Positions 8,698 through 22,459 of a DNA stretch of 64,000 bases are shown in pieces. The notes under the pieces are model-generated. The model was not told the DNA's origin. It searched no databases and worked only from the letters and a program-made list of their open reading frames with translations. The stretch lies in assembly GCA_009691845.1 (NCBI GenBank), contig SIAJ01000009.1, positions 1 to 64,000 of the forward strand. Reading direction: 5' to 3'. The first letter of the stretch is position 1; every line of letters starts with the position of its first letter. The DNA is from Gemmataceae bacterium. Lineage in GTDB: Bacteria > Planctomycetota > Planctomycetia > Gemmatales > Gemmataceae. The position numbers and the translations under genes are program-made.

Positions 8698-9243
8698 ATG
8701 GTACTTTCTCGAAACGATCGCCGTGCCGGCCTCACCCTGCTCGAAGTGTTGCTGGTTGTGGCGATCATTATCGTTTTGGGGGCCGTGGCCTATCCAACGC
8801 TCGACGCCATGTACGGCGATGTGCGTGTGAAGGCCGCAGCCGACCAGGTTCGTGGAGCCTGCACCGAGGCCCGAACGCGAGCCATTGAGGACGTTCGACC
8901 CTATCGCTTGGCGGTGCAGCCTGGGACCGGCAAGTTCCGCGTGGCACCCCATGCGTCCGAATTTTGGGACGGCAGCAGCAGCGAAGGAATGGGGGAAGAA
9001 GTCTCGGTCCCCGCATTCATTCAGGAAGAAGAACTGACCCAGCCCATCCTCTTCGAGATCGACGGCGACTTTCCGACCGAAGGCGAATGGACCACGATCG
9101 TGATTTTCAATCCGGACGGAACCTGCTCGGCGGACGTTGAAATCGCCCTCAAGGAGGAGGACGACACGAGTCCCCTCATCATTCGCATTCGAGCCATGAC
9201 CGGGGCGGTCAGCGTACGCAGGAAAACCGTGGAGGAACGCTAA
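8698..9243 (+). CDS. GspH-like pseudopilin
   Basis: RRAGLTLLEVLLVVAIIIVLGAVAYPTL; second pilin gene in the series. Confidence 0.8.
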   Translation: MVLSRNDRRAGLTLLEVLLVVAIIIVLGAVAYPTLDAMYGDVRVKAAADQVRGACTEARTRAIEDVRPYRLAVQPGTGKFRVAPHASEFWDGSSSEGMGEEVSVPAFIQEEELTQPILFEIDGDFPTEGEWTTIVIFNPDGTCSADVEIALKEEDDTSPLIIRIRAMTGAVSVRRKTVEER

Positions 9244-9246
9244 CCC

Positions 9247-9708
9247 ATGCGCTTATCACCGGCAACACGTCGGCCTGGCATGTCCCTCCTCGAGGTCCTG
9301 GGAGCGACGGCCATCTTCCTCATCTCGATCGTCGCCATCGGCGAGTTGATGAGCCTGTCCACGGACCAGGCACTCGAAGTGCAGTTCCGCTCACGGGCGA
9401 CCCGGCTGTGCCAGTCCAAGATGAACGAGTTCGTCTCAGGCGTCGAGCAACTCAATGGTGCAACTTCCGGCGAGTTCGAAGAAGAACCGGAATGGACCTG
9501 GTCCGCAGAAGTGACCAGCGAATCTTCCGCGTTGAATCTGTATCGCGTCAAGATTACGGTCACCCGTGAACTTTCGGGCGAACCGATCGAAGTCAGCATG
9601 ACGCAGTTTGTGTTCGATCCGCTTCAACGCGGCCAACTGCCGAGTGCGGCCACGACAACCGAAGCGACGACCACCACGGGAAGCACATCGACGGGAGGCG
9701 CGCCATGA
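9247..9708 (+). CDS. GspI-like pseudopilin with Thr-rich C-terminus
   Basis: RRPGMSLLEVLGATAIFLISIVAIGELM; C-term ATTTEATTTTGSTSTGGAP. Confidence 0.75.
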   Translation: MRLSPATRRPGMSLLEVLGATAIFLISIVAIGELMSLSTDQALEVQFRSRATRLCQSKMNEFVSGVEQLNGATSGEFEEEPEWTWSAEVTSESSALNLYRVKITVTRELSGEPIEVSMTQFVFDPLQRGQLPSAATTTEATTTTGSTSTGGAP

Positions 9709-10571
9709 TCCTGCATCGCCATCGCCGAACTGGCTTTACTCTTCTCGAAGTATTGCTGGCCAGCGCGCTCGCGTTGATTTTGATGGCCGCGTTGTACGTC
9801 GCGCTCGATGTGCAATTGCGACTGGCGGCCGCCGGTCGCGATGCAATTGACGAAGCGACCCTCACGCGGGCCATCGTCCAACGCTTTGAGAACGACCTGG
9901 CGAACAGCATCGGCCCGGTCGCACCGGCCGTCGGCAATCAGAGTTCCACGACGGGCACGACGGGAGCGACCACTGGAACTACCTCGACGACGGGCCAAGC
10001 CGTGATGGAAGCCGTCACGATGTCCGATGCCCCAATGTTTCAGGCGGGCGTGATCGGCGAATCGGATGGCGAAAACAGGCCGCGGCTGACGATCTTCGTG
10101 GCCCGCGTTGCCGCGATGCAAAAGACAGGCGAAGAATCAGTCGATGCGGCTGTTCCGTCCGACATTCGCCGCGTGACTTACTGGATGACCGACACGGGCT
10201 TGGCCCGGCAAGAGATCCCCTGGGTCACTTCGCAAGAATTGCTGTCCTCGACCGAGCCGAGCTTTCAGAACAACGAGGGCGACAGCAATTTCGTGATTGC
10301 GGAGGAAGTGAGCCAACTCGTCATCGAATACTGGGATGGCAGTGCCTGGACCGAGACCTGGGATGGGCGTGAAACGCTAGAAGATGGCAAAACGCTCAAA
10401 GGCCCGCCGATGGCCATTCGCGTTCGCGTCTGGTTGAAGCTGGCCGGTCCAGAGGCGGGCGAGACGATCGAAAAAGAATTCCGCCACACGATCGCGGTCC
10501 GCGGCGGACCCGGCCCAGCCCTGCCGGAAACGCCGATGCCGGCAGTCCCGGCGACGACGACGACGCCTTGA
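9705..10571 (+). CDS. GspJ-like pseudopilin with internal Thr/Gly-rich insert
   Basis: RRTGFTLLEVLLASALALILMAALYVALDVQLR; 4-bp ATGA overlap with the preceding gene; VRVWLKLAGPEAGETIEKEFRHTIAVRGG. Confidence 0.8.
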   Translation: MILHRHRRTGFTLLEVLLASALALILMAALYVALDVQLRLAAAGRDAIDEATLTRAIVQRFENDLANSIGPVAPAVGNQSSTTGTTGATTGTTSTTGQAVMEAVTMSDAPMFQAGVIGESDGENRPRLTIFVARVAAMQKTGEESVDAAVPSDIRRVTYWMTDTGLARQEIPWVTSQELLSSTEPSFQNNEGDSNFVIAEEVSQLVIEYWDGSAWTETWDGRETLEDGKTLKGPPMAIRVRVWLKLAGPEAGETIEKEFRHTIAVRGGPGPALPETPMPAVPATTTTP

Positions 10572-10620: not shown

Positions 10621-12276
10621 ATGCTCCTCAGACATCCCGCTCCCGGCCAACGCTCCGCCGCCTCGCGTCGAGGTGGCTTCGTCATCGTTGCCGTGCTGAT
10701 GGTCGTGACCGTGCTTTCGCTGGCGGCCTATCAATACAGCGCGCTCATGGATGCCGAGGTTCTGGCCGCGGAACGGATTCGCAAAACCACCGAAGTAAAA
10801 GCTCTCGCGGATTCGGGTCTCTACCATGCCATGGCCCACGTGACCGATCCGGATGCTTTCGAGGGTGTCCTTAGCAACAATCCGTTCGACAACCCAGGCA
10901 AGTTCCAAGACGTGATTGTCAACGAAGGCGAATCGGCCCGAGCGCAAGGTCGCTTTTCGCTGGTCGCGCTCGATTATGGTCAGGATCCCGCGGCTGGCTC
11001 GATCCCATTGCGTTACGGCATGATGGACGAAGCCGCTCGGCTCAACCTCAACGCGTTGTTCGCTCTCGATTCATCCGGCAAAGTGCTGCACGATGCGCTC
11101 ATGAAGTTGCCGAGCATGACCGACGAAGTGGCCTGGTCGATTGTCGATTGGGTTGACCCGAACGACGAACCGAGTGCGGGCGGAGCGGAGAACGAATATT
11201 ACACCGCTCGCAGCCCAAGCTACCTCTGCAAGAACGCCCCTCTCGATACGGTGGAGGAATTGTTGCTCGTGAAGGGGGTCACTCCGTCGTTGCTCTTTGG
11301 CACCGACCGCAACCGAAATGGCAAGCTCGATCCCGGTGAAGACGATGGCATGGGCTACACGCCCGGCTGGGCCGCGTTCCTGACCGTCTATAGCCGGGAA
11401 CGCAATGTCGATGTGGAGGGCATGCCACGTATCAATTTGAACGGCAACGACATGAACCAACTCAAGAACGACCTCGTCGCGGTCGTCGGCGAGGAGCTGA
11501 CGACGTTCATACTTGCCTACCGGCTGTTGGGCCCTGGAACGGCCGCTAAGGGTGGCAGCGCGGCTACAGCGACGTTGAACATGGGGACGGGGAAATTGAC
11601 CATCGTCACGATCACGAGTCCCACCGTGGAAGGATCGATTGCCCAACTTGCAACGCTCGTTCAGGACGCGATCACGAAAAAGCAGCAACCGAAGCAGCGG
11701 ATCTCGTCGCTCTTTGCCCTGGTCAGTGCCACCGTCAATGTTGAGCAGGCAGGAAAAGCTCCCACTGGCGGCAAAGGCGGCCCAGCGCCCACCACCACGA
11801 TCTCGTTCAAATCGCCGCTAGCGAACAAGACGACGCAAGTCGATTTGCTCGGCAAGATGCTCGACAAGACGACAACCCAACAGGGAGCCGAGCTTCCCGC
11901 CAAGGTGAACGTGAACACGGCACCCCGAGCGGTTCTGCTGACTTTGCCGGGTATAACGGAAACCGATGCCGATTCCATCCAAGCCAAGAGGCCACAATAC
12001 CTCGACGGCGAATCCCCAGATGCCAAGTTCGCGACGATTGCCTGGCTGTTGGGGGATAACACGCTGACTGTCGCAAAGATGCAGGCTCTCGAGCGCTACC
12101 TCACGGCCCGCACGCAGGTTTATCGGGTACAATCCATCGGCTACTTCGACGAAGCCGGGCCGATGGCCCGCGTCGAGGCCGTCATCGACACGAATCAGGG
12201 TAAACCACGAATCGTCTACTATCGCGACCTGACGGATTTGGGTCGCTCGATTGATCCGAGGACTTTGAATCGTTAA
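10621..12276 (+). CDS. GspK-like minor pseudopilin
   Basis: RRGGFVIVAVLMVVTVLSLAAYQYSALMDAE; ARLNLNALF; WVDPNDEPSAGGAENEYY; helix-hairpin-helix-like VNVNTAPRAVLLTLPGITETDA. Confidence 0.88.
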   Translation: MLLRHPAPGQRSAASRRGGFVIVAVLMVVTVLSLAAYQYSALMDAEVLAAERIRKTTEVKALADSGLYHAMAHVTDPDAFEGVLSNNPFDNPGKFQDVIVNEGESARAQGRFSLVALDYGQDPAAGSIPLRYGMMDEAARLNLNALFALDSSGKVLHDALMKLPSMTDEVAWSIVDWVDPNDEPSAGGAENEYYTARSPSYLCKNAPLDTVEELLLVKGVTPSLLFGTDRNRNGKLDPGEDDGMGYTPGWAAFLTVYSRERNVDVEGMPRINLNGNDMNQLKNDLVAVVGEELTTFILAYRLLGPGTAAKGGSAATATLNMGTGKLTIVTITSPTVEGSIAQLATLVQDAITKKQQPKQRISSLFALVSATVNVEQAGKAPTGGKGGPAPTTTISFKSPLANKTTQVDLLGKMLDKTTTQQGAELPAKVNVNTAPRAVLLTLPGITETDADSIQAKRPQYLDGESPDAKFATIAWLLGDNTLTVAKMQALERYLTARTQVYRVQSIGYFDEAGPMARVEAVIDTNQGKPRIVYYRDLTDLGRSIDPRTLNR

Positions 12277-12324: not shown

Positions 12325-13986
12325 TTGTCTCGAATATTAGCCATCGACATCGATCAAGGCTCCGCGTACGTGGCCACCGGCGTGGCACGTGGCGGAAGCG
12401 TCAAGCTCGAGCAGGTGGTCACCATCCCGCTCGGCGAGACGCTCACTCCGTCCAACGCGGCCGCGCTGGGGAAGCAACTCAAGGACGCTCTGAAGTCTCA
12501 TGGGATTCCCCCAGGTCCGGTTGTCGCCGTGGTCGGCCGCGATCGCGTGATCCTGAAGGACATCAAGATCCCAAAGGTCGCTCCTGGTGAAGAGCCGGCA
12601 CTTGTCCGCTTTCAAGCCAGCAAGGACATGACCGAGGCATTTGACTCGGTCGTGCTCGACTATTTCACGCTTGACCGACCGGATGCCGATGGCCAGATGC
12701 GGGCCGTCACCGCCACCGTTCGCAAAGATCTTCTCGCGTCGTACAAGTCTTTCTGCCAGGCTGCGGGACTGAAGCTGGAAGGCCTGACGGCACGACCGCT
12801 CGGTACTTTGGCCGCCCTCGATCGCGCGTTCGTGACCGGGGCCGTCACCGCCCCGGAAGCTAAACATTCTTCGATAGCCGTGCTGAGCCGGGGCGAAAAG
12901 TGGGGCGAACTCGTCGTGGCCCGCGATGGGCAGGTCATCTTCTCGCGAACCATCTCGGCGACGTCATTGACTGCGGAGGCGATGCTTCTCGGTGAACTTC
13001 GCCGTAATTTGGCCGTCTACAACGGCCAAAACCCGCAGCAACCGGTTGAATCTCTCTTCATCGCGGAAGCCGCCGGCCCCTCCGGAACTTGGAGTGGCCG
13101 CATCCGGGCTGGGTTGACGATTCCCGTTCAAGCCTTCGACCCGCTGGCCGGCGTGGAGCACGACACTTCGGCCGATGCGCGCGGACAATTTGCGGGCCTG
13201 GCCGGCGTGCTGCAATTGAAGTCCAAGGCAAAGCCGTTGCCGATTGACTTCGCCTCGCCCCGGCAAGCAGTCTCGACAGAGGCGGCCAACAAACGGATTG
13301 CCTTGTCGATCGCCTCGATCCTGGCACTGTTCATTATTGGCGGCCTGGCGTTCGGATACATCCAGGTTGAGAAGAAGCAGGCCCGGCTGACCGAGCTTGT
13401 CAAGGAGAAGAGCGCACTCGACAAGGAGGTCAAGGAACTGGAAGAAGACGCGAAGCGCATCAAGATTTACAAGGAATGGGACACGCAACGAGTGAACTGG
13501 CTCGATGAAATATACGACCTGGCTGCCCGGTTCCCGGACATCAACGGCGCACGCCTCGAGCAGTTCCGCGGCGAGCCGTACGCCATGCCGAAGGCCGCCA
13601 AGAACGTGAAGGTCGATAAGAACCTGCCGGTGCTCGTCGCCAAGATGTTCCTCAAGATCCAAACCGAGTCGGGCAAGCTGATGGACGAGTTCCAAACTGC
13701 CTTGCAGGCCGACAAAAAATATCACCACCTCGCCCGGCAGACCAAGGGCGGTGCGACGGCCGGGTCAAGTCGATTCACGCATTCGTATGAACTGATCGCA
13801 CTCGTCGAGCGACGCCCGGCCAGCGAGTACACTCGAACCCTGTCCGCCAGCGTGCCCGCCAAGCCGTCGCGGGCCATGAAAGGCTTCGGCGAACGGACGG
13901 GCGGCGGCTTCCCGGAGTTCGGCAAACGCCCTGAGTCCAAGGCCGAAGAAAAGACGGAAGAACTTCCGGGAGGGCCAAATCGATGA
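12325..13986 (+). CDS. PilM-like actin-fold protein fused to a PilN-like membrane domain (GspL analogue)
   Basis: MSRILAIDIDQGSAYVATGV, VVGRDRVILKDIKIPK; single TM IALSIASILALFIIGGLAFGYI followed by coiled coil. TTG start. Confidence 0.75.
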   Translation: MSRILAIDIDQGSAYVATGVARGGSVKLEQVVTIPLGETLTPSNAAALGKQLKDALKSHGIPPGPVVAVVGRDRVILKDIKIPKVAPGEEPALVRFQASKDMTEAFDSVVLDYFTLDRPDADGQMRAVTATVRKDLLASYKSFCQAAGLKLEGLTARPLGTLAALDRAFVTGAVTAPEAKHSSIAVLSRGEKWGELVVARDGQVIFSRTISATSLTAEAMLLGELRRNLAVYNGQNPQQPVESLFIAEAAGPSGTWSGRIRAGLTIPVQAFDPLAGVEHDTSADARGQFAGLAGVLQLKSKAKPLPIDFASPRQAVSTEAANKRIALSIASILALFIIGGLAFGYIQVEKKQARLTELVKEKSALDKEVKELEEDAKRIKIYKEWDTQRVNWLDEIYDLAARFPDINGARLEQFRGEPYAMPKAAKNVKVDKNLPVLVAKMFLKIQTESGKLMDEFQTALQADKKYHHLARQTKGGATAGSSRFTHSYELIALVERRPASEYTRTLSASVPAKPSRAMKGFGERTGGGFPEFGKRPESKAEEKTEELPGGPNR

Positions 13987-15284
13987 CCACGCGCGAACGC
14001 ACACTCAGTATTGGGCTCGGCACTCTCATCGGCGTCGGACTTCTCGGCTTCCTGGCCTGGCAGTTCGTCATCGGCCCGGTCATCGAAAAAGACAAGCAGA
14101 TCAAGATGCGCGAGGCCGAGGTGGCCCAGCTTCAGTTGGACCTGATGGACATTCAGGCTCAACGCAAGAAATTTGAAGCCAACCGACAGCAGAGCCTGCC
14201 GAGCGACGTGGGACTTTCACGCACGCAATATGGCAATCTTCTTGAAGGCCTGATGCGCAAGTCCGATTTTGCGCCCGGTTCCTACAAGATCACGGTTCGC
14301 GAAGCCGAGAACAAATCCACGCCGACGATTGCTCCCAAGAAGCCCGCGTACACCCGGCTCAAGTACGATGTCACGGTCAAGGGAGAACTGTATCACCTCG
14401 TTGATTTCATGCGCAGCTTCTATTCGCAATCGCTTCTGCATCAGATCAAGACGATCAACATTATTCGTCCGAGCGATCAACGCGCACAGGGCCGCAAGGA
14501 ACTGGACATCACCCTGGATATCGAGGCCCTGGTGCTGGACAATGCGCCGGCCCGCCCCACCTTGCTTCCCTTGGCCGAGGGAGGTGGCTCCTCCGTTCCT
14601 CCAGCCGATGTGCTTGCCAGCGTGCCACGCGAGTACCTGACCATCCCAGGCAAGGACGTGTTTTTTGGGCCACCGCCCAAGGCTCCCGTTGCGCGAGAAC
14701 CCGTTGTGGTGCCTGAGTTGCCGCCCGAGGACGACCATTCTCCGTTTGTAACCCTCACCTCAATAGTTGGTAACGACGACGGGAAAATCATTGCGGTCTT
14801 CCGCGATAAGTTGGACAATGCTAATTATTCCATCACGCAAGGGATCAAGGGGGAGCTTCGCGTTCGTGGCGAATACGAGTTGAGTGCCGGCCGATGGAAA
14901 ACCCTTCCCGAATACATCGTGAACCCCGGCCCGCGTTTGTTCTTCGGATCGGAGGAAGGCCAGAACCTCCGCATGTGGCGCGTCCGCCGAGTGTTGCTCG
15001 ATGGCGTCATCGTGGAGAAGATCGATGCCGTCAAAGCGGGCACCACGGCCAAGCTGCAGCCGCTTGAGGCCATTGCCGGGGGGCTTGGGGCCTTCGTGAA
15101 TGTGCCCGAGGGCAAGATTTACAAAGTTGGCCTGGGGCAGACGCTCATGCCGGCCGCGTTCGGGGAAACCAAGCAGGCAAGTGGGCCGGTGAAGTATTTA
15201 CTGCAAAAAGAGGCATGGCGGGATATTTACGCTCCCCTGGTGATTCCAGCCGCCCCGGTTAGTGCGGAGGATCGCGGGAGATAG
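13983..15284 (+). CDS. PilO/GspM-like protein with extended C-terminal domain
   Basis: N-terminal TM then coiled coil; LKYDVTVKGELYHLVDFMRSFYSQSLLHQIKTINI; 4-bp overlap with the preceding gene. Confidence 0.65.
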   Translation: MTTRERTLSIGLGTLIGVGLLGFLAWQFVIGPVIEKDKQIKMREAEVAQLQLDLMDIQAQRKKFEANRQQSLPSDVGLSRTQYGNLLEGLMRKSDFAPGSYKITVREAENKSTPTIAPKKPAYTRLKYDVTVKGELYHLVDFMRSFYSQSLLHQIKTINIIRPSDQRAQGRKELDITLDIEALVLDNAPARPTLLPLAEGGGSSVPPADVLASVPREYLTIPGKDVFFGPPPKAPVAREPVVVPELPPEDDHSPFVTLTSIVGNDDGKIIAVFRDKLDNANYSITQGIKGELRVRGEYELSAGRWKTLPEYIVNPGPRLFFGSEEGQNLRMWRVRRVLLDGVIVEKIDAVKAGTTAKLQPLEAIAGGLGAFVNVPEGKIYKVGLGQTLMPAAFGETKQASGPVKYLLQKEAWRDIYAPLVIPAAPVSAEDRGR

Positions 15285-15473
15285 AAACCCGACTTTCGGA
15301 CGGAATCCTGGTCAGGATGAGTCGATTCTGAAAGTTTGTGGGTTCCCGTCAACTATTAGAACAGGTCGTGCCGAATTGAACGAAGACAACGGCCGGGAAT
15401 CGGTCCGCGAATGTCATGTCCGCACGCACTCACGGGGGATGGCGTGCAACCTAGAACGGTGGAGCTTCCGCAT

Positions 15474-18400
15474 ATGACTAATACACCTCGCAAACTCTTC
15501 TGGCCGAAACGTTGGTTGCGTTCCTTCGCGGGAGTCGCTCTCGCGTCCTCCGTTGCGGGCGGAATGCTCTGGGCCGCCGAGCCGCCGCTCAGCTACCAGG
15601 TTGCGCAGAAGGAAGCTCCCAAGTCCGACCTCCCGCCAGTGCCCAAGCTGGAATTACCCAAAACCCCGAAGGTCGAAGCCCCCGCTGCGCCCAAGGAACG
15701 GACTATTGCGTTCTCGATGAGCGATAAGCCTTGGGCCGACGTCATGAAGTGGTATGCCGACGAAAGCGGCCTGGCGTTCAATTCCGTCGTCAAGCCGCCG
15801 GACGCCACCTTCAACTTCCTTCCGCCCAAAGACCCGGTCACGGGCCTGACGAAGCGCTACACGCTGTCGGGCGTAACGGACGTCATCAACGAATCATTGT
15901 TGGCCAAGAACTTCGTGCTCATTCGCTTCGAGCAGTCGTTCCGCCTCTGGCCGGCCGACCAGCCGATTGACCCGGCCCACGTTCGCCGTGTGTCGCTCGA
16001 AGAATTGAAGACGCTCGCCAAGACCGACATGGTGCAGATCGTTCTCGAACTGAAACAATTGATCGCCTTCGACCAGGTCAATAACGTTCGCAAGATGATG
16101 AGCAAGGTCGGCGAGGTTGTTGCGCTCGAAGGGGGCCGCAATGCCCTGATCATGATCGACATCGCCGGCAACCTGCGTCGCATCGTTGACGATTTGACCG
16201 CAGGCGAGAAGGAAGGTGCGAGCGAGGCCGAGGCGTATTCGCACAAGTGCAGGTATGTGAAAGCCCATGAAGCCGCCGCCCATTGCCGCGAGTTGATCGG
16301 GGCCGAGGGTGGCCCGGAACCGCAGATATATACAAGCGGAGGAACGGGTAGTCGTGGCGGTGATTCGGGGCGCAGCCGGTTCGGTGATCCAAACAGCTTC
16401 GGCTCAGGTGACCGCGGCTTTGACTTCCGCGGCTTCGGTCGTGACAGCAGCGGCGGGTTCGACCCTCGACGCGGTGGTTCCAGTTCGCGCACGCTCAAGC
16501 CCAGCAAGGTCATTGCCGATGATGACACGAATACCGTTTTCGTAAATGGTCCCGCGGATAAGGTTAGCCAGGCCAAGGCGTTCCTCGTGAAATACGACAT
16601 GGGAACGACGAAGATCGATGTGGGCCCAGCGACGTTTCAGAACTATCCCGTTCCCGCAGGCATGGCCGAGGCGTTCACGCAGGCCCTGATCGAAAAGTAC
16701 AGCAAGTCGGGCATTCGCGTCAAAGCCCTCTCGCCTAATTCGATTTACGTCTACGCGGCCCCGGCCGACCATTTGCAGATCATCGGCTACATCAACGATC
16801 TTGGCAAGGCTCAGAAGCTCACAAGTCGCTCGCTTGAAATCACCAGCATGGACGTCGGCGAAGCCGTGACGTTGCTCAAAGCCATTTTCCCGTCGTCGTT
16901 GAGCGGCGGCCCGGTCATTGAGAAACATCCAAATGGAACGGGGATCGTCGTCAGCGGCCGGCTCGATCAAGTCTCGGACGTGGAAGCCGTTCTCGGGAGT
17001 ATTACAGGCACCGCGACATCTACGCCAGGTTCGGCGGGTGGTACCTCTCGCATCATCAACCTGAAGGACGGCAGTGCTGGCGACCTGGCCGAGGCGATCC
17101 GTCAGATGATGGAAAGCATGGGCAACAAGGACGTGAAGGTGATCCGTCCCGGTGGCCCGAGCGTACCGAAGCCGATGCCATTGGTCCCGCCACGCGAGTT
17201 GAAGTCGGAGTTACCCAAAATTCCGCTCATCCCGAAATCTCCGGAGGTTCTCGACAAGAAGATCGGTATCCTGCCGGGCGACATCAAGCCGATCGGCCTC
17301 GGTGTGCGCGATCTCGATTCGACCATGATGCTGGCGCTGAACACGCAGCTCGTGAATCCGGCCGAAGAGAAGAAGTCCAGTGGCGGCGGGCTGATCATCA
17401 CGGCCATCGGCGACAAACTGTACATCACGGGGAACGATCCGAAGGTCGTGGCCCTCGCGGCCGACTTGGCTCGGATGATCGTCTCGACCAAGGGCGAAAC
17501 GTATCAGGTCTTCAAGCTCAGCAACGCGAACGCGGTCGAGGCTGCCCGCGTTTTGAACGAATGGTTCAATCCACCAGCACCCCAGCAGGGTCGCGGTGGC
17601 AACAACCCGCTTGCCCAGTTGTTCGGCGGCGGTGGTGGCGGTGGCCGAGGCGGCTTCGGTGGGGGCGGTGCCGATCCGGCTGCTGCGGCTGCTGCTGCGG
17701 ATGCCGCGAAGCCTCGCGTCCGAATCGTTGCCGAACAGACAAGCAATTCGCTGCTGGTGCGAGCCAACATGCTCGATTTGCTCACCATCAAGAACATGCT
17801 TGAGACGGTGATCGATACCGGCCCCGGCGATTCCAAGGCGGTCGTGAAGCCCTTCTTTATTGAGCCGTTGCAGTACGCCGTGGCTACGGAAGTGGTCGCG
17901 ATCATCCAGCAGGTCTTCCGCGAGAGCACAAATTCCGCATCCAGCCAGGGAGGCGCGTCTGGAGGCTTCTCGCTTGGCGGATTCGGCGGATTCGGCGGTG
18001 GCGGCGGTGGCGGCCGTCAACAACCACTCGACGCGCTGGGTCGGCCCAAGCAAGTGACTCTCACGATCGCGGCCGACGATCGCACCAACAGCATCCTGGG
18101 CACGGCCACGGAGTTGATGGCCACGGACATCAAAGCCATGGTGCAAATCATGGAAGAGAATGCCAAGGACTCGACCAAGGTCGTCACGCTCGTTGGCACG
18201 AAGGGGCTCGATCCCACGCTCGTTCAGCAGGTGATGGACGCAATTCAAGGCCGTAGCCCGACGACGCAACCTGGCGGTGGCTTGAGCCCGTTCGGCCAAC
18301 AAGGCGGCAGCCCCTTCGGTCTAGGCGGCCAAGGTGGTGGCCAGTTTGGTGGAGGAACCGGCGGCGGCTTCGGCGGTCCTGCGGCCGGCGGTGGACGATT

Positions 18401-21400
18401 TGGTGGACGATTTGGTGGACGAACCGGCGGCGGCTTCGGCGGTGCCGGCGGCGGACGCGGTGGGGCCGGAGGAGGCCGAGGAGGAAAAAGTCGAGCACCT
18501 GCTCCGCCGCCTATAGGCGGGGCGCTCTCTGGAGGGCCCGATTTTTTTGACCACCGGGACATGGATGTCCCGCAGCAGACCTCCCTATTCGACGCTTACG
18601 AAGACTCCTTGAAGAATCGGCAAGCATCGAGCGAGCCGATGATCATCAACCCTGTTCGCCTCGTCGGTGCGAAGGATATTGTCCCGGCATCTAAGGTGCC
18701 GGCCACCTTCGTGGCACAAGCCAAGAAGGACCCCGTCGTTGAGCCGAAAGTCGAGCCGAAGCCCGGCTCTGTAGAACTGACCGGCCCCCGTGGTCCTGTT
18801 GCCATCACTCCGCTCCCGGAATTCGGACGCGTCATCGTCACAGCCAATAACCAGGCCGACCTGGAGTTGGCCCTCAAGATCATTGAGCAACTTCGCAAAG
18901 AGATTGAAAAAGAGGGTGCCGAGGGTGGTCCGAAACTTGAATTCGTCGAACTCGAATTCGGCGATGCCGTCGAGATCGTGAGCCTCGTCAATCAACTCGG
19001 TTCACGAGCGACGCAGGGGACGGCCGCGACCCGCCCGCAAGCCGGTCAGGTCGGGCAGCAAATTCAGACCTCGACGGGCGGCTCCGTGTTGCTGATCCCG
19101 GTTGCACGACGCAACTCGATCCTGATGTTTGGGTCCGAACTGCGCTTCGAGTACTACAAGAAGCTCATTAAAGACCTGGATATCAAGAACACGAACTTGC
19201 CGACGGTCATTCCGCTGAAGAAGGCGGCGGCCCAGCAGGTCGCGACCTACCTGACGCGCTTCTACGCGGCCCGTTATCCAGAGGACACGACGAACGGCAA
19301 TCTCATCCGCATCACCTACGACACACGCAGTAACTCGATACTAGTGCAGGCCGGCCCCGCGGACCTGGAAGAAATTCAGTTGATCATCCAGCGGCTTGAT
19401 ACCAGCCATGGTCCCACGAACGAACTCCGCATTTATCGCCTGAAGAACACGGTCGCGGAAGATCTGGCCACCGTGCTGCAGACGGCCTTGATGCAGAACA
19501 TTATGCCGCAAGGAATCGGAGTCGTCCCGCCAGACCAGGGCGGATTAGGCGGTGCCGGGGGCTTCGGTCAGCAAGGCGCAGGCGGTCAGGGACAACAACC
19601 TGGCGGGGCCCAAGGTGCATTCGGCCAGGCCACGGGCGGCCTTCGTGCCCAGCTTGGCTCACCAACAACCAACACAACCAAGACGGTTTCGCTTCGCTTC
19701 CTCGTGCCTGGCAAGAACGGCACGTTCGAGTCTGGCTACCTCGAAGACGTCCACATCACGCCCGATGTGCGTTCGAACAGCCTGCTGATCTCCGCACCGG
19801 AGGAGACGCTCAAGCTCCTCGAAGAAGTCATCAGGAATCTGGACGTGGCCAGTGCCACCAAGGCCCAGGTCAATATCTTCACGCTGAAAAAGGCCGACGC
19901 CACGTTGACGGCCAACATGCTGCAACAGCTCTTCGGCGGCACAACAACCGCCGGAGGAGGGGGCCAGGGGCCTGGCGGTCTCGGTCAAGCGGGTGGCACG
20001 AACACGCAAGGCTTCCGACCGCTCTTGACAGCGACCGGAACCGTGGGCGAAGGCGCAGGCCTCATCAACCTCGGCATCACAGTCGATGATCGAACCAACT
20101 CGATCATCGTGGCCGCGAGCCAAAACGATCTGGATGCGATTCGGGCCATCATCGCCCGGCTTGAAGACGCGGACGTGCAGCAACGCACGACCAACGTCAT
20201 CAAGCTGAAAAATGCCGGTGCCGTCGATGTGGCGAACGCATTGCAGCCCTTCCTCACGCAGTCGCTCCAGGTCATTCAGACCGGGATTACGCAGACGAAC
20301 TATCTGGAATCGTCGCGGAACATCGTGATCGCGGCCGAGCCGGTGACGAACAACCTGCTCATCAGCGCCACGCCCGCAGCCTTCGCGGCTCTGAAGCCGG
20401 TAATCGAACGGCTCGACGCACAACCGTTGCAAGTCTCGGTCGAAGTCCTCATTGCCGAAGTGATCCTCAACAACAGCGAGGAATTCGGCGTTGAGGTCGG
20501 TCTTCAGGCCCCCGTATTGTTCCAGCGAGCGTTGATTCCAACGACCAGTGCGAGCTTCTCGAACGCGACGGGTGGCTTTATTCCGCCCGGCACGTCCGTG
20601 AATAGCACGATCACCCAGTATGCCGGGTCCGCGTTCCCGTTCAACAACCTGAACGGTACTGCGACTCCTTACAACAACGCGGTGCGAACGGGCATCGTCG
20701 GCATGCAGGGGATCACGAACTACGGCGTCGGTCGAGCCAACTCGAATGGCCTCGGCGGATTCGTGTTCTCGGCGGGTTCGGATACGGTCAACGTCCTGAT
20801 TCGCGCACTGAAGACTCAGCGACGCGTGGACAATCTGTCCCGTCCGACCGTCACCGCTCTCGACAATCAGATCGCCACGGTGAACATCGGTGGGCTATAC
20901 CCGTATATTTCGGGTGGGCAGTTCACAGCCCTCGGAACGTTCCAGCCGCAGATTACCCAGCAGCAGATCGGTACGACGCTCACCATCACGCCACGAATCA
21001 GCCCGGAAGGCCGGATTCTGATGCGAGTGGAACCGAGCATCATCGCTCCGGAAGAAACGCTCATCAGCCTCGGCAACGGCCAGTTCGCAACTGCATTCCG
21101 CCAGCAGGCGGTGCAGACAACGGTCTCTGTCATGGACGGAGAGACGGTTGTTCTCGGAGGGTTGATCTCGAAGACGAACGTTCGTCAGGAGAACAAGGTG
21201 CCGTGGCTGGGCGATCTGCCTTACATTGGCTCGGCCTTCCGCTTCCGAACGCAGGAGCAGGAGAAACGCGAACTACTCGTGATTTTGACACCGCACGTGA
21301 TCCGCAACAGTGCCGATAGCGAACGGTTGCTGATCGACGAAGCCCGCAAGATGAGCTGGGCACTTCGTGACGTGGACCGCATGTTCGGTACTCCTCCTCC

Positions 21401-21638
21401 TGGTGTGAACCCACCGAGCGGGAACACGCCGGGTGCGTTGCCTCCGGACGTACAGCCCGAAGTCGGAACGCCAGCCGCCCCCGTGCTGGGACCGCAACCG
21501 GTCATGCCGCCGTCCAAGGTCACACCGAAACCAAAAGTGCCGGACGCCCCGAAGCCGATGCCACCGAAACCAGCGGCACCAATTTCGCCTGCGGCTGCTA
21601 CGGAGCCGGCGCGTGGGATCATGATCCCGGATTTGTAG
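15474..21638 (+). CDS. Giant multi-module secretin (GspD/PilQ type)
   Basis: Serial N1-like modules (e.g. VIPLKKAAAQQVATYL...DTRSNSILVQAGPADLEEIQLIIQRLD) and C-terminal secretin domain (VEVLIAEVILNNSEEFGVE, GTTLTITPRI, TTVSVMDGETVVLGGLISKTN, VPWLGDLPYIGSAFR). Likely start MTNTPRKLFW at 15474. Confidence 0.92.
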   Translation: MTNTPRKLFWPKRWLRSFAGVALASSVAGGMLWAAEPPLSYQVAQKEAPKSDLPPVPKLELPKTPKVEAPAAPKERTIAFSMSDKPWADVMKWYADESGLAFNSVVKPPDATFNFLPPKDPVTGLTKRYTLSGVTDVINESLLAKNFVLIRFEQSFRLWPADQPIDPAHVRRVSLEELKTLAKTDMVQIVLELKQLIAFDQVNNVRKMMSKVGEVVALEGGRNALIMIDIAGNLRRIVDDLTAGEKEGASEAEAYSHKCRYVKAHEAAAHCRELIGAEGGPEPQIYTSGGTGSRGGDSGRSRFGDPNSFGSGDRGFDFRGFGRDSSGGFDPRRGGSSSRTLKPSKVIADDDTNTVFVNGPADKVSQAKAFLVKYDMGTTKIDVGPATFQNYPVPAGMAEAFTQALIEKYSKSGIRVKALSPNSIYVYAAPADHLQIIGYINDLGKAQKLTSRSLEITSMDVGEAVTLLKAIFPSSLSGGPVIEKHPNGTGIVVSGRLDQVSDVEAVLGSITGTATSTPGSAGGTSRIINLKDGSAGDLAEAIRQMMESMGNKDVKVIRPGGPSVPKPMPLVPPRELKSELPKIPLIPKSPEVLDKKIGILPGDIKPIGLGVRDLDSTMMLALNTQLVNPAEEKKSSGGGLIITAIGDKLYITGNDPKVVALAADLARMIVSTKGETYQVFKLSNANAVEAARVLNEWFNPPAPQQGRGGNNPLAQLFGGGGGGGRGGFGGGGADPAAAAAAADAAKPRVRIVAEQTSNSLLVRANMLDLLTIKNMLETVIDTGPGDSKAVVKPFFIEPLQYAVATEVVAIIQQVFRESTNSASSQGGASGGFSLGGFGGFGGGGGGGRQQPLDALGRPKQVTLTIAADDRTNSILGTATELMATDIKAMVQIMEENAKDSTKVVTLVGTKGLDPTLVQQVMDAIQGRSPTTQPGGGLSPFGQQGGSPFGLGGQGGGQFGGGTGGGFGGPAAGGGRFGGRFGGRTGGGFGGAGGGRGGAGGGRGGKSRAPAPPPIGGALSGGPDFFDHRDMDVPQQTSLFDAYEDSLKNRQASSEPMIINPVRLVGAKDIVPASKVPATFVAQAKKDPVVEPKVEPKPGSVELTGPRGPVAITPLPEFGRVIVTANNQADLELALKIIEQLRKEIEKEGAEGGPKLEFVELEFGDAVEIVSLVNQLGSRATQGTAATRPQAGQVGQQIQTSTGGSVLLIPVARRNSILMFGSELRFEYYKKLIKDLDIKNTNLPTVIPLKKAAAQQVATYLTRFYAARYPEDTTNGNLIRITYDTRSNSILVQAGPADLEEIQLIIQRLDTSHGPTNELRIYRLKNTVAEDLATVLQTALMQNIMPQGIGVVPPDQGGLGGAGGFGQQGAGGQGQQPGGAQGAFGQATGGLRAQLGSPTTNTTKTVSLRFLVPGKNGTFESGYLEDVHITPDVRSNSLLISAPEETLKLLEEVIRNLDVASATKAQVNIFTLKKADATLTANMLQQLFGGTTTAGGGGQGPGGLGQAGGTNTQGFRPLLTATGTVGEGAGLINLGITVDDRTNSIIVAASQNDLDAIRAIIARLEDADVQQRTTNVIKLKNAGAVDVANALQPFLTQSLQVIQTGITQTNYLESSRNIVIAAEPVTNNLLISATPAAFAALKPVIERLDAQPLQVSVEVLIAEVILNNSEEFGVEVGLQAPVLFQRALIPTTSASFSNATGGFIPPGTSVNSTITQYAGSAFPFNNLNGTATPYNNAVRTGIVGMQGITNYGVGRANSNGLGGFVFSAGSDTVNVLIRALKTQRRVDNLSRPTVTALDNQIATVNIGGLYPYISGGQFTALGTFQPQITQQQIGTTLTITPRISPEGRILMRVEPSIIAPEETLISLGNGQFATAFRQQAVQTTVSVMDGETVVLGGLISKTNVRQENKVPWLGDLPYIGSAFRFRTQEQEKRELLVILTPHVIRNSADSERLLIDEARKMSWALRDVDRMFGTPPPGVNPPSGNTPGALPPDVQPEVGTPAAPVLGPQPVMPPSKVTPKPKVPDAPKPMPPKPAAPISPAAATEPARGIMIPDL
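18390..18424 (+). repeat. 12-bp tandem repeat GGTGGACGATTT in the secretin Gly-rich segment
   Basis: ggtggacgatttggtggacgatttggtggacga. Confidence 0.8.
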
Positions 21639-21733: not shown

Positions 21734-22459
21734 ATGGATCTTCGCAAACTATTCCCGCTCTGTACATGTCTCGCGATCGCGGGCCTGGTCGGGTGCGTGA
21801 CTTCCTCCAAGCCGGCCCACGATCAGAACGAGAAAATCAAGGCAGCCGCGGCCTCGCCCGAGCCGGGCGATGTGATTCCCCCAGGCCTGACGCCGAAATT
21901 CCTTGGCTTACTTACGGGCGAAGGACTCTCCGCCACGCCGGCCCAGATGGGCGAAGCGTCGAAGGTGACGGCTGCGTGGAACAACAAGATCGTGTTCGCA
22001 CCCGATCCCACGCGGGGCGGCGATCCGATGCCAAGTTTGATCGTTCGCTTGTGGCTCTTCGGTCCGGATGAGGGAACGCCGGTTGCTCCCGATGGCGAAT
22101 TGCTCGTTGCCCTGTGGGACAACATGCCAAAGAGCGGAAGCGGCAAGCCCGAGCTGAAAGAGTTATGGCACATCGATCGCGAGACCGCGATGAAGTTCCG
22201 CAAGCGCGATGCGATCGGCGATGGCTACACGCTGCTGCTGCCGTGGAGCAACTACAACATCGACGTCAAGCAAGTGAATCTGGTTGTGCGTTTCAACGGT
22301 GCGGATGGCCGCAGCGTGGCCTCGGCCCCGGAAAAACTCAGCATCGACCACTCGGCCACCCTGCAAAAAGCTCAGGAGCGATTGGGCATCTCGACGAAGT
22401 CGGAGAGCTTCGAGAAACTTCCAACTCCGGCACTTCGACCTTGGCCGGAAACAAAGTAG
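21734..22459 (+). CDS. Putative lipoprotein
   Basis: Lipobox IAGLVGC; follows the secretin gene on the same strand. Confidence 0.75.
   Translation: MDLRKLFPLCTCLAIAGLVGCVTSSKPAHDQNEKIKAAAASPEPGDVIPPGLTPKFLGLLTGEGLSATPAQMGEASKVTAAWNNKIVFAPDPTRGGDPMPSLIVRLWLFGPDEGTPVAPDGELLVALWDNMPKSGSGKPELKELWHIDRETAMKFRKRDAIGDGYTLLLPWSNYNIDVKQVNLVVRFNGADGRSVASAPEKLSIDHSATLQKAQERLGISTKSESFEKLPTPALRPWPETK

Follow-up and report, generated by a model that had tools for sequence, protein, structure and literature searches.

The 64,000-nucleotide stretch analysed here (the window; positions 1 to 64,000, forward strand, of contig SIAJ01000009.1, Gemmataceae bacterium assembly GCA_009691845.1) carries a giant secretin gene within an operon of type II secretion system (T2SS) type. 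The reading frame is open from an ATG at 15411 to a stop at 21638 on the + strand, corresponding to 2,075 amino acids. The in-frame ATG at 15474, which was taken as the start in an earlier note made from the sequence alone, is the likelier of the two because it opens a typical signal peptide (MTNTPRKLFWPKRWLRSFAGVALASSVAGGMLWAAE), and the predicted product is then 2,054 amino acids long. The protein is confirmed to consist of a predicted signal peptide, an N0 domain, 13 N1-like modules (M1 to M13), one secretin domain and a proline-rich tail, an architecture well beyond that of the solved secretins with which it was compared.

Identity and domain architecture of the giant secretin

The curated NCBIfam equivalog model for GspD (TIGR02517) gives the protein 427.8 bits, above its cut-off of 351.35, whereas the PilQ model (TIGR02515) gives 188.3 bits against a cut-off of 284.35, and the YscC and MshL models also stay below their cut-offs. 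Only Secretin_N and Secretin exceed the Pfam cut-offs, and the AMIN domain, N-terminal in proteobacterial PilQ, is absent. A single Secretin domain is present (PF00263, 3.9e-42, matched over the full profile, positions 1-169), in agreement with the earlier note. Identity as PilQ is rejected on the two NCBIfam scores, and the profiles argue that the protein is the T2SS secretin GspD; of the joint GspD/PilQ frame used in the earlier note, the first half is retained and the second dropped. Membership in GspD by the curated model stands, and the 13 N1-type modules make the protein a variant of that family.

Pfam alone detects nine significant Secretin_N stretches (1.3e-81), rather than only two to four, and an N1 profile built iteratively on related proteins detects 12, nine of them with E<0.01. 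N0 and 13 candidate modules were delimited from the motif pattern, and module profiles were taken from the aligned columns of 24 Gemmataceae homologs and compared by profile-profile alignment (hhalign) with an independent reference drawn from 273 strong N1 modules of other lineages. Every one of the 13 matches it, and the weaker modules M1, M3, M4, M5 and M8, together with M2, each beat their column-shuffle controls in 60 of 60 comparisons, so that chance repeats or low-complexity artefacts are rejected as an explanation. Neither N0 nor any of eight secretin-domain tiles matches the N1 reference. AlphaFold2 predicts the order beta-alpha-(insert)-beta-beta-alpha in M1, M3 and M5-M13, placed after N0 and before the secretin barrel, and assigns no first strand to M2 and M4. 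The count of 12-13 modules in the earlier note is therefore settled at 13 by the profile-profile alignments with their controls, together with the predicted secondary structure.

In a profile search of the PDB, positions 5-199 of the N-terminal half align with N0-N1-N2 chains of XcpQ (E values of 1e-6 to 5e-9), which bears out the N0-like start that had been read by eye, and the C-terminal half aligns with N3 and the secretin domain of GspD. The best Foldseek matches are XcpQ N0-N2 (4ec5, 5mp2) for the model of the N-terminal half and PulD, GspD and ExeD for that of the C-terminal half. N0, M1, M2 and M13 correspond to the canonical N0, N1, N2 and N3, and because the two halves align in this way, about ten extra modules lie between N2 and N3.

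Inserts are found in about eight modules (M2, M5-M9, M11 and M12), and in the AlphaFold2 models they always fall between helix 1 and strand 2. Most are glycine-rich (amino acids 293-357, 719-768, 836-886, 946-1045, 1360-1418 and 1498-1546, numbered from the start at 15411), and the flexible glycine-rich segments total about 400 residues. In PulD, the loop of residues 288-303, listed as unbuilt in an electron cryo-microscopy study (PMC6882859), falls at the same helix 1-strand 2 position of N3 in the alignment. Low-complexity loops rich in glycine, phenylalanine, glutamine and arginine are strong in Gemmataceae GspDs, whereas the compared GspDs from other planctomycetes have almost none. A resemblance to the FG-repeat loops of nucleoporins was considered and found to be weak, with 256 FG and GF dipeptides in the glycine-rich loops against a shuffled expectation of 203 (about 1.3-fold).

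Table 1. Features of the giant secretin gene and its operon (window coordinates)
Feature	Coordinates	Strand	Basis
gspH-like minor pseudopilin	8698..9243	+	Pfam, NCBIfam
gspI-like minor pseudopilin	9247..9708	+	NCBIfam
gspJ-like minor pseudopilin	9705..10571	+	Pfam
gspK-like minor pseudopilin	10621..12276	+	Pfam, NCBIfam
gspL/PilM-like platform protein	12325..13986	+	Pfam (PilM_2), NCBIfam
gspM-like platform protein	13983..15284	+	Marginal GspM profile match; operon position
Giant gspD-type secretin gene	15411..21638	+	Open reading frame, Pfam, NCBIfam; start 15474 likelier
Predicted signal peptide region, no lipobox seen	15474..15581	+	Sequence pattern
N0 domain	15699..15977	+	Profile match to XcpQ/GspD N0-N1-N2; AlphaFold2 pLDDT (predicted local distance difference test) ~80
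M1, N1-like (canonical N1)	16026..16214	+	Profile-profile, shuffles, PDB profile match, AlphaFold2
M2, N1-like (canonical N2), Gly-rich insert	16233..16607	+	N1 profile, profile-profile, shuffles, PDB profile match, AlphaFold2
M3, N1-like	16626..16814	+	Profile-profile, shuffles, AlphaFold2
M4, N1-like	16818..17015	+	Profile-profile, shuffles, AlphaFold2
M5, N1-like, Pro/Lys-containing insert of ~80 amino acids	17040..17498	+	Profile-profile, shuffles, AlphaFold2
M6, N1-like, Gly-rich insert	17493..17822	+	N1 profile, profile-profile, AlphaFold2
M7, N1-like, Gly/Phe-rich insert	17835..18167	+	N1 profile, profile-profile, AlphaFold2
M8, N1-like, split by insert of ~180 amino acids (Gly/Phe/Arg-rich, then Pro-rich)	18174..18905	+	Profile-profile, shuffles, AlphaFold2
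M9, N1-like, short insert	18930..19190	+	N1 profile, profile-profile, AlphaFold2
M10, N1-like, no insert	19197..19409	+	N1 profile, profile-profile, AlphaFold2
M11, N1-like, Gly/Gln-rich insert	19419..19853	+	N1 profile, profile-profile, AlphaFold2
M12, N1-like, Gly-rich insert	19863..20174	+	N1 profile, profile-profile, AlphaFold2
M13, N1-like (canonical N3)	20184..20426	+	N1 profile, profile-profile, AlphaFold2, alignment to PulD N3
Secretin C domain (PF00263), barrel and gate	20805..21305	+	Pfam, profile and structure matches
Pro-rich C-terminal tail, no assigned function	21306..21638	+	Sequence
Lipoprotein, lipobox LVGC, candidate pilotin or secretin partner	21734..22459	+	Conserved directly downstream of secretin

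Operon, host genome and planctomycete relatives

The operon has the order H-I-J-K-L-M-D-lipoprotein, and the same order is found in Gemmataceae relatives. The downstream lipoprotein matches no Pfam family. A homolog immediately follows the secretin gene in the Gemmataceae loci that were read, and likewise in 23 of the 28 named loci whose flanks were long enough (three from Gemmataceae, the others mostly of Pirellulales type). Many of these homologs have a clear lipobox, and the protein is a candidate pilotin. Elsewhere in the host genome, GspE and GspF are encoded on another contig (C153), C139 carries a PilB/PilT/PilC cluster, and C56 carries a Tad-type cluster that has a 608-amino-acid secretin of its own. 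The genome also encodes a second giant secretin-domain protein of 1,552 amino acids (G000:C113:92768; L092, L121), with a helical repeat-like N-terminus, no N1 stack and no adjoining secretion genes; proteins resembling it, of 1,400-1,970 amino acids, occur in many Gemmataceae.

Secretin reading frames of 1,896-2,442 amino acids were found in 36 of 61 sampled Gemmataceae genomes, with seven more apparently cut by contig ends and none listed for the others. All 24 Gemmataceae proteins compared have 13 alignable modules, with a mean pairwise identity of 34-52% per module, which points to purifying selection; the number 13 is thus fixed and old in the family. In Pirellulales and Planctomycetales, which belong to the same class, GspD is mostly about 1,100-1,500 amino acids long with roughly 6-9 modules. 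M9-M13 and the secretin domain of these proteins are 35-39% identical to those of the giant secretin and the same lipoprotein follows in most loci, whereas the shorter N-terminal half is only 17-19% identical.

Other Planctomycetota lineages have single open frames of 3,580-5,073 amino acids without an internal stop, encoding 37-52 N1 modules. These supergiants (L084-L091, from G142, G254, G210, G235, G130, G061, G085 and G177, and the named relatives L188, L199, L200, L203 and L206) have the same modules and secretin domain as the giant secretin. Their modules are three to four times as numerous, follow one another regularly, about every 79 residues, and carry few glycine-rich loops; these proteins are probably more remarkable than the 13-module protein itself. 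L199, L200 and L203 are metagenome-assembled genomes (MAGs) labelled Phycisphaerales or Phycisphaeraceae, with 50 modules in the Phycisphaeraceae secretin L200. A T2SS operon was checked in one genome, G142, where the 4,217-amino-acid supergiant ends an operon in which gspE, F, G, J, K and a PilM-like L are identified. Some near-neighbour module pairs in this protein are up to 82% identical, so that growth by recent duplication is visible. Multi-N1 secretins are also found in MAGs labelled Akkermansia or Verrucomicrobia: L181 and L196 have about 41-42 modules, and L192 and L194, both truncated by contig ends, have 12 and 17. These MAGs are either mislabelled planctomycetes or a sign of a wider spread. 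Set out by lineage, as the earlier note had proposed, module number is about 6-9 in Pirellulales types, 13 in Gemmataceae and 37-52 in Phycisphaerales-type and other lineages. No description of multi-N1 giant secretins in Planctomycetota was found in the open-access literature.

Probable form and function of the channel

The giant secretin shares with GspD, PulD and XcpQ an N0 domain, N1-type domains of beta-alpha-beta-beta-alpha order, N3, the secretin domain and a gsp operon. It differs from them in having 13 rather than three N1-type domains and 2,054-2,075 rather than about 600-750 amino acids (about three times the size), long and mostly glycine-rich loops in about eight modules, a proline-rich tail, and a downstream lipoprotein without a known family. 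Additional N1-type domains are also present in the PilQ of Thermus thermophilus, a protein of 757 amino acids whose six domains, N0-N5, form six stacked rings (PMC5745081). There, the extra domains lengthen the periplasmic channel by one ring per domain, although that protein belongs to a type IV pilus system and has six rings, whereas the giant secretin is of GspD type, with 13 N1 modules and N0.

The protein is probably the GspD of a Gemmataceae T2SS in which about ten extra N1 domains between N2 and N3 form an elongated channel of stacked rings. The C-terminal secretin domain of each subunit would span the outer membrane, and N0 would point towards the inner-membrane platform of GspL and GspM. 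As in solved secretins, some 12-15 subunits would assemble with one ring per N1 module, giving a stack of 13 N1 rings and N0 that would be roughly 45 nm long if every module formed a ring, at an assumed length of roughly 2.5 nm per added ring. The PulD channel measures 20 nm (PMC6882859), and 50 modules would reach well over 100 nm. Secreted cargo would presumably pass through a channel served by a pseudopilus of H, I, J and K. The glycine-rich loops of about eight rings, projecting from the helix 1-strand 2 position, may face the lumen and could line, narrow or seal it, while the downstream lipoprotein probably delivers the secretin to the outer membrane or holds it there.

Several observations weigh against an elongated stack. 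GspC (PF11356), the docking partner of N0, has no match at E<=10 in the host genome, which is 94% complete; a divergent substitute may take its place. The gspM-like protein is long (433 amino acids) and has an extra C-terminal periplasmic segment, which could stand in for GspC; an alignment of eight homologs gave no clear support for a suspected GspC/PilP-like domain at this end. In addition, the AlphaFold2 model of the N-terminal half, built on five sequences, is poor overall (mean pLDDT 54.6, predicted template modelling score 0.26) and gives no reliable packing of the modules. The low mean arises because about 45% of this half, mostly insert, falls below 50; N0 and M1 reach about 70-88, M3 mostly about 75-80 and the remaining modules about 60-80. 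The model of the C-terminal half, built on 33 sequences, is fair (mean pLDDT 68.5). Finally, the flexible glycine-rich segments could act as spacers that block tight stacking.

In a rather unlikely alternative, only the modules homologous to N2-N3, and perhaps M9-M13, form rings and M1-M8 are beads on a string, serving as a flexible tether or ruler to a distant inner membrane or binding peptidoglycan or cargo. The concentration of disordered glycine- and proline-rich loops in M2-M8, including the large insert inside M8, is consistent with such a tether, as is the flexibility of N0-N2 in many solved secretins (PMC6882859). Nevertheless, the loops lie inside the modules and not between them, the linkers between most neighbouring modules are only about 1-10 residues long, as would be expected in tight ring stacks, and the Phycisphaerales-type supergiants repeat the same modules at a regular pitch with few such loops.

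A further possibility, which we consider distinctly unlikely, is that the giant secretin forms the core of the crateriform 'press-stud' structures of Planctomycetia, which bear dextran-binding fibres, and acts in uptake or adhesion rather than secretion. These envelope-spanning structures, of unreported composition in P. limnophila, also occur in G. obscuriglobus and Tuwongella (PMC5394234, PMC5845749). A long secretin would be a natural candidate for a stud joining the outer to the inner membrane, but the operon is of T2SS type, even if minor pseudopilins alone are still compatible with a pilus. Moreover, the fibres, at a reported thickness of 12 nm, are probably too wide for a secretin lumen. 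Phycisphaeraceae have been reported to lack crateriform structures (PMC8882080), yet the secretin of L200, a MAG with that family label, has 50 modules; module number does not simply track the craters, and the giant secretin and the craters are not equated here. The 'nuclear pore-like' structures described in G. obscuriglobus (PMC5287468) were also considered, and nothing in the giant-secretin data connects the protein with them.

A role in a type IV pilus instead of a T2SS is highly improbable: the gspL gene does match PilM_2 and the components of the two systems are closely related, but the GspD model is above its cut-off and the PilQ model below, the operon contains gspH-, I-, J- and K-like genes, the host has a separate PilB/PilT/PilC cluster and a GspE-GspF pair, and a homologous supergiant in a related lineage ends a gspE-F-G-...-J-K-L-M-D operon.

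The earlier note had suggested that a long ring stack might match the enlarged planctomycete periplasm, and this link is speculative. Boedeker et al. reported that crateriform complexes hold the membranes together where these are close and are missing at invaginations (PMC5394234), a distribution more in keeping with a connector of fixed length than with a tube that crosses an enlarged periplasm; in addition, the Phycisphaeraceae, reported to be without craters, belong to a lineage with longer secretins.

A bolder form of the elongated T2SS channel, which we regard as rather doubtful, is that each lineage sets the length of its tube by the addition of N1 rings: tubes of Pirellulales types would measure roughly 30 nm, those of Gemmataceae about 45 nm and those of Phycisphaerales-type lineages, with about 50 rings, >100 nm. 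In Gemmataceae, disordered loops rich in glycine and phenylalanine would fill the lumen and form a permeability mesh that replaces or supplements a single gate. If true, no longer secretin channels would be known. Well-studied secretins have three to six N-rings, and six has been called unusual (PMC5745081). The assumption that secretins are simply matched to a 20-30 nm periplasm is broken by a conserved GspD of 13 modules and by relatives that have about 50, which raise the question of whether module number sets the distance bridged between the outer and inner membranes. The series of about 7, 13 and about 50 modules provides natural material for the study of how pseudopili and substrates pass through long channels. 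Planctomycete envelopes have been disputed for decades, and the giant secretin offers a large complex, open to genetic work, to look for directly in tomograms.

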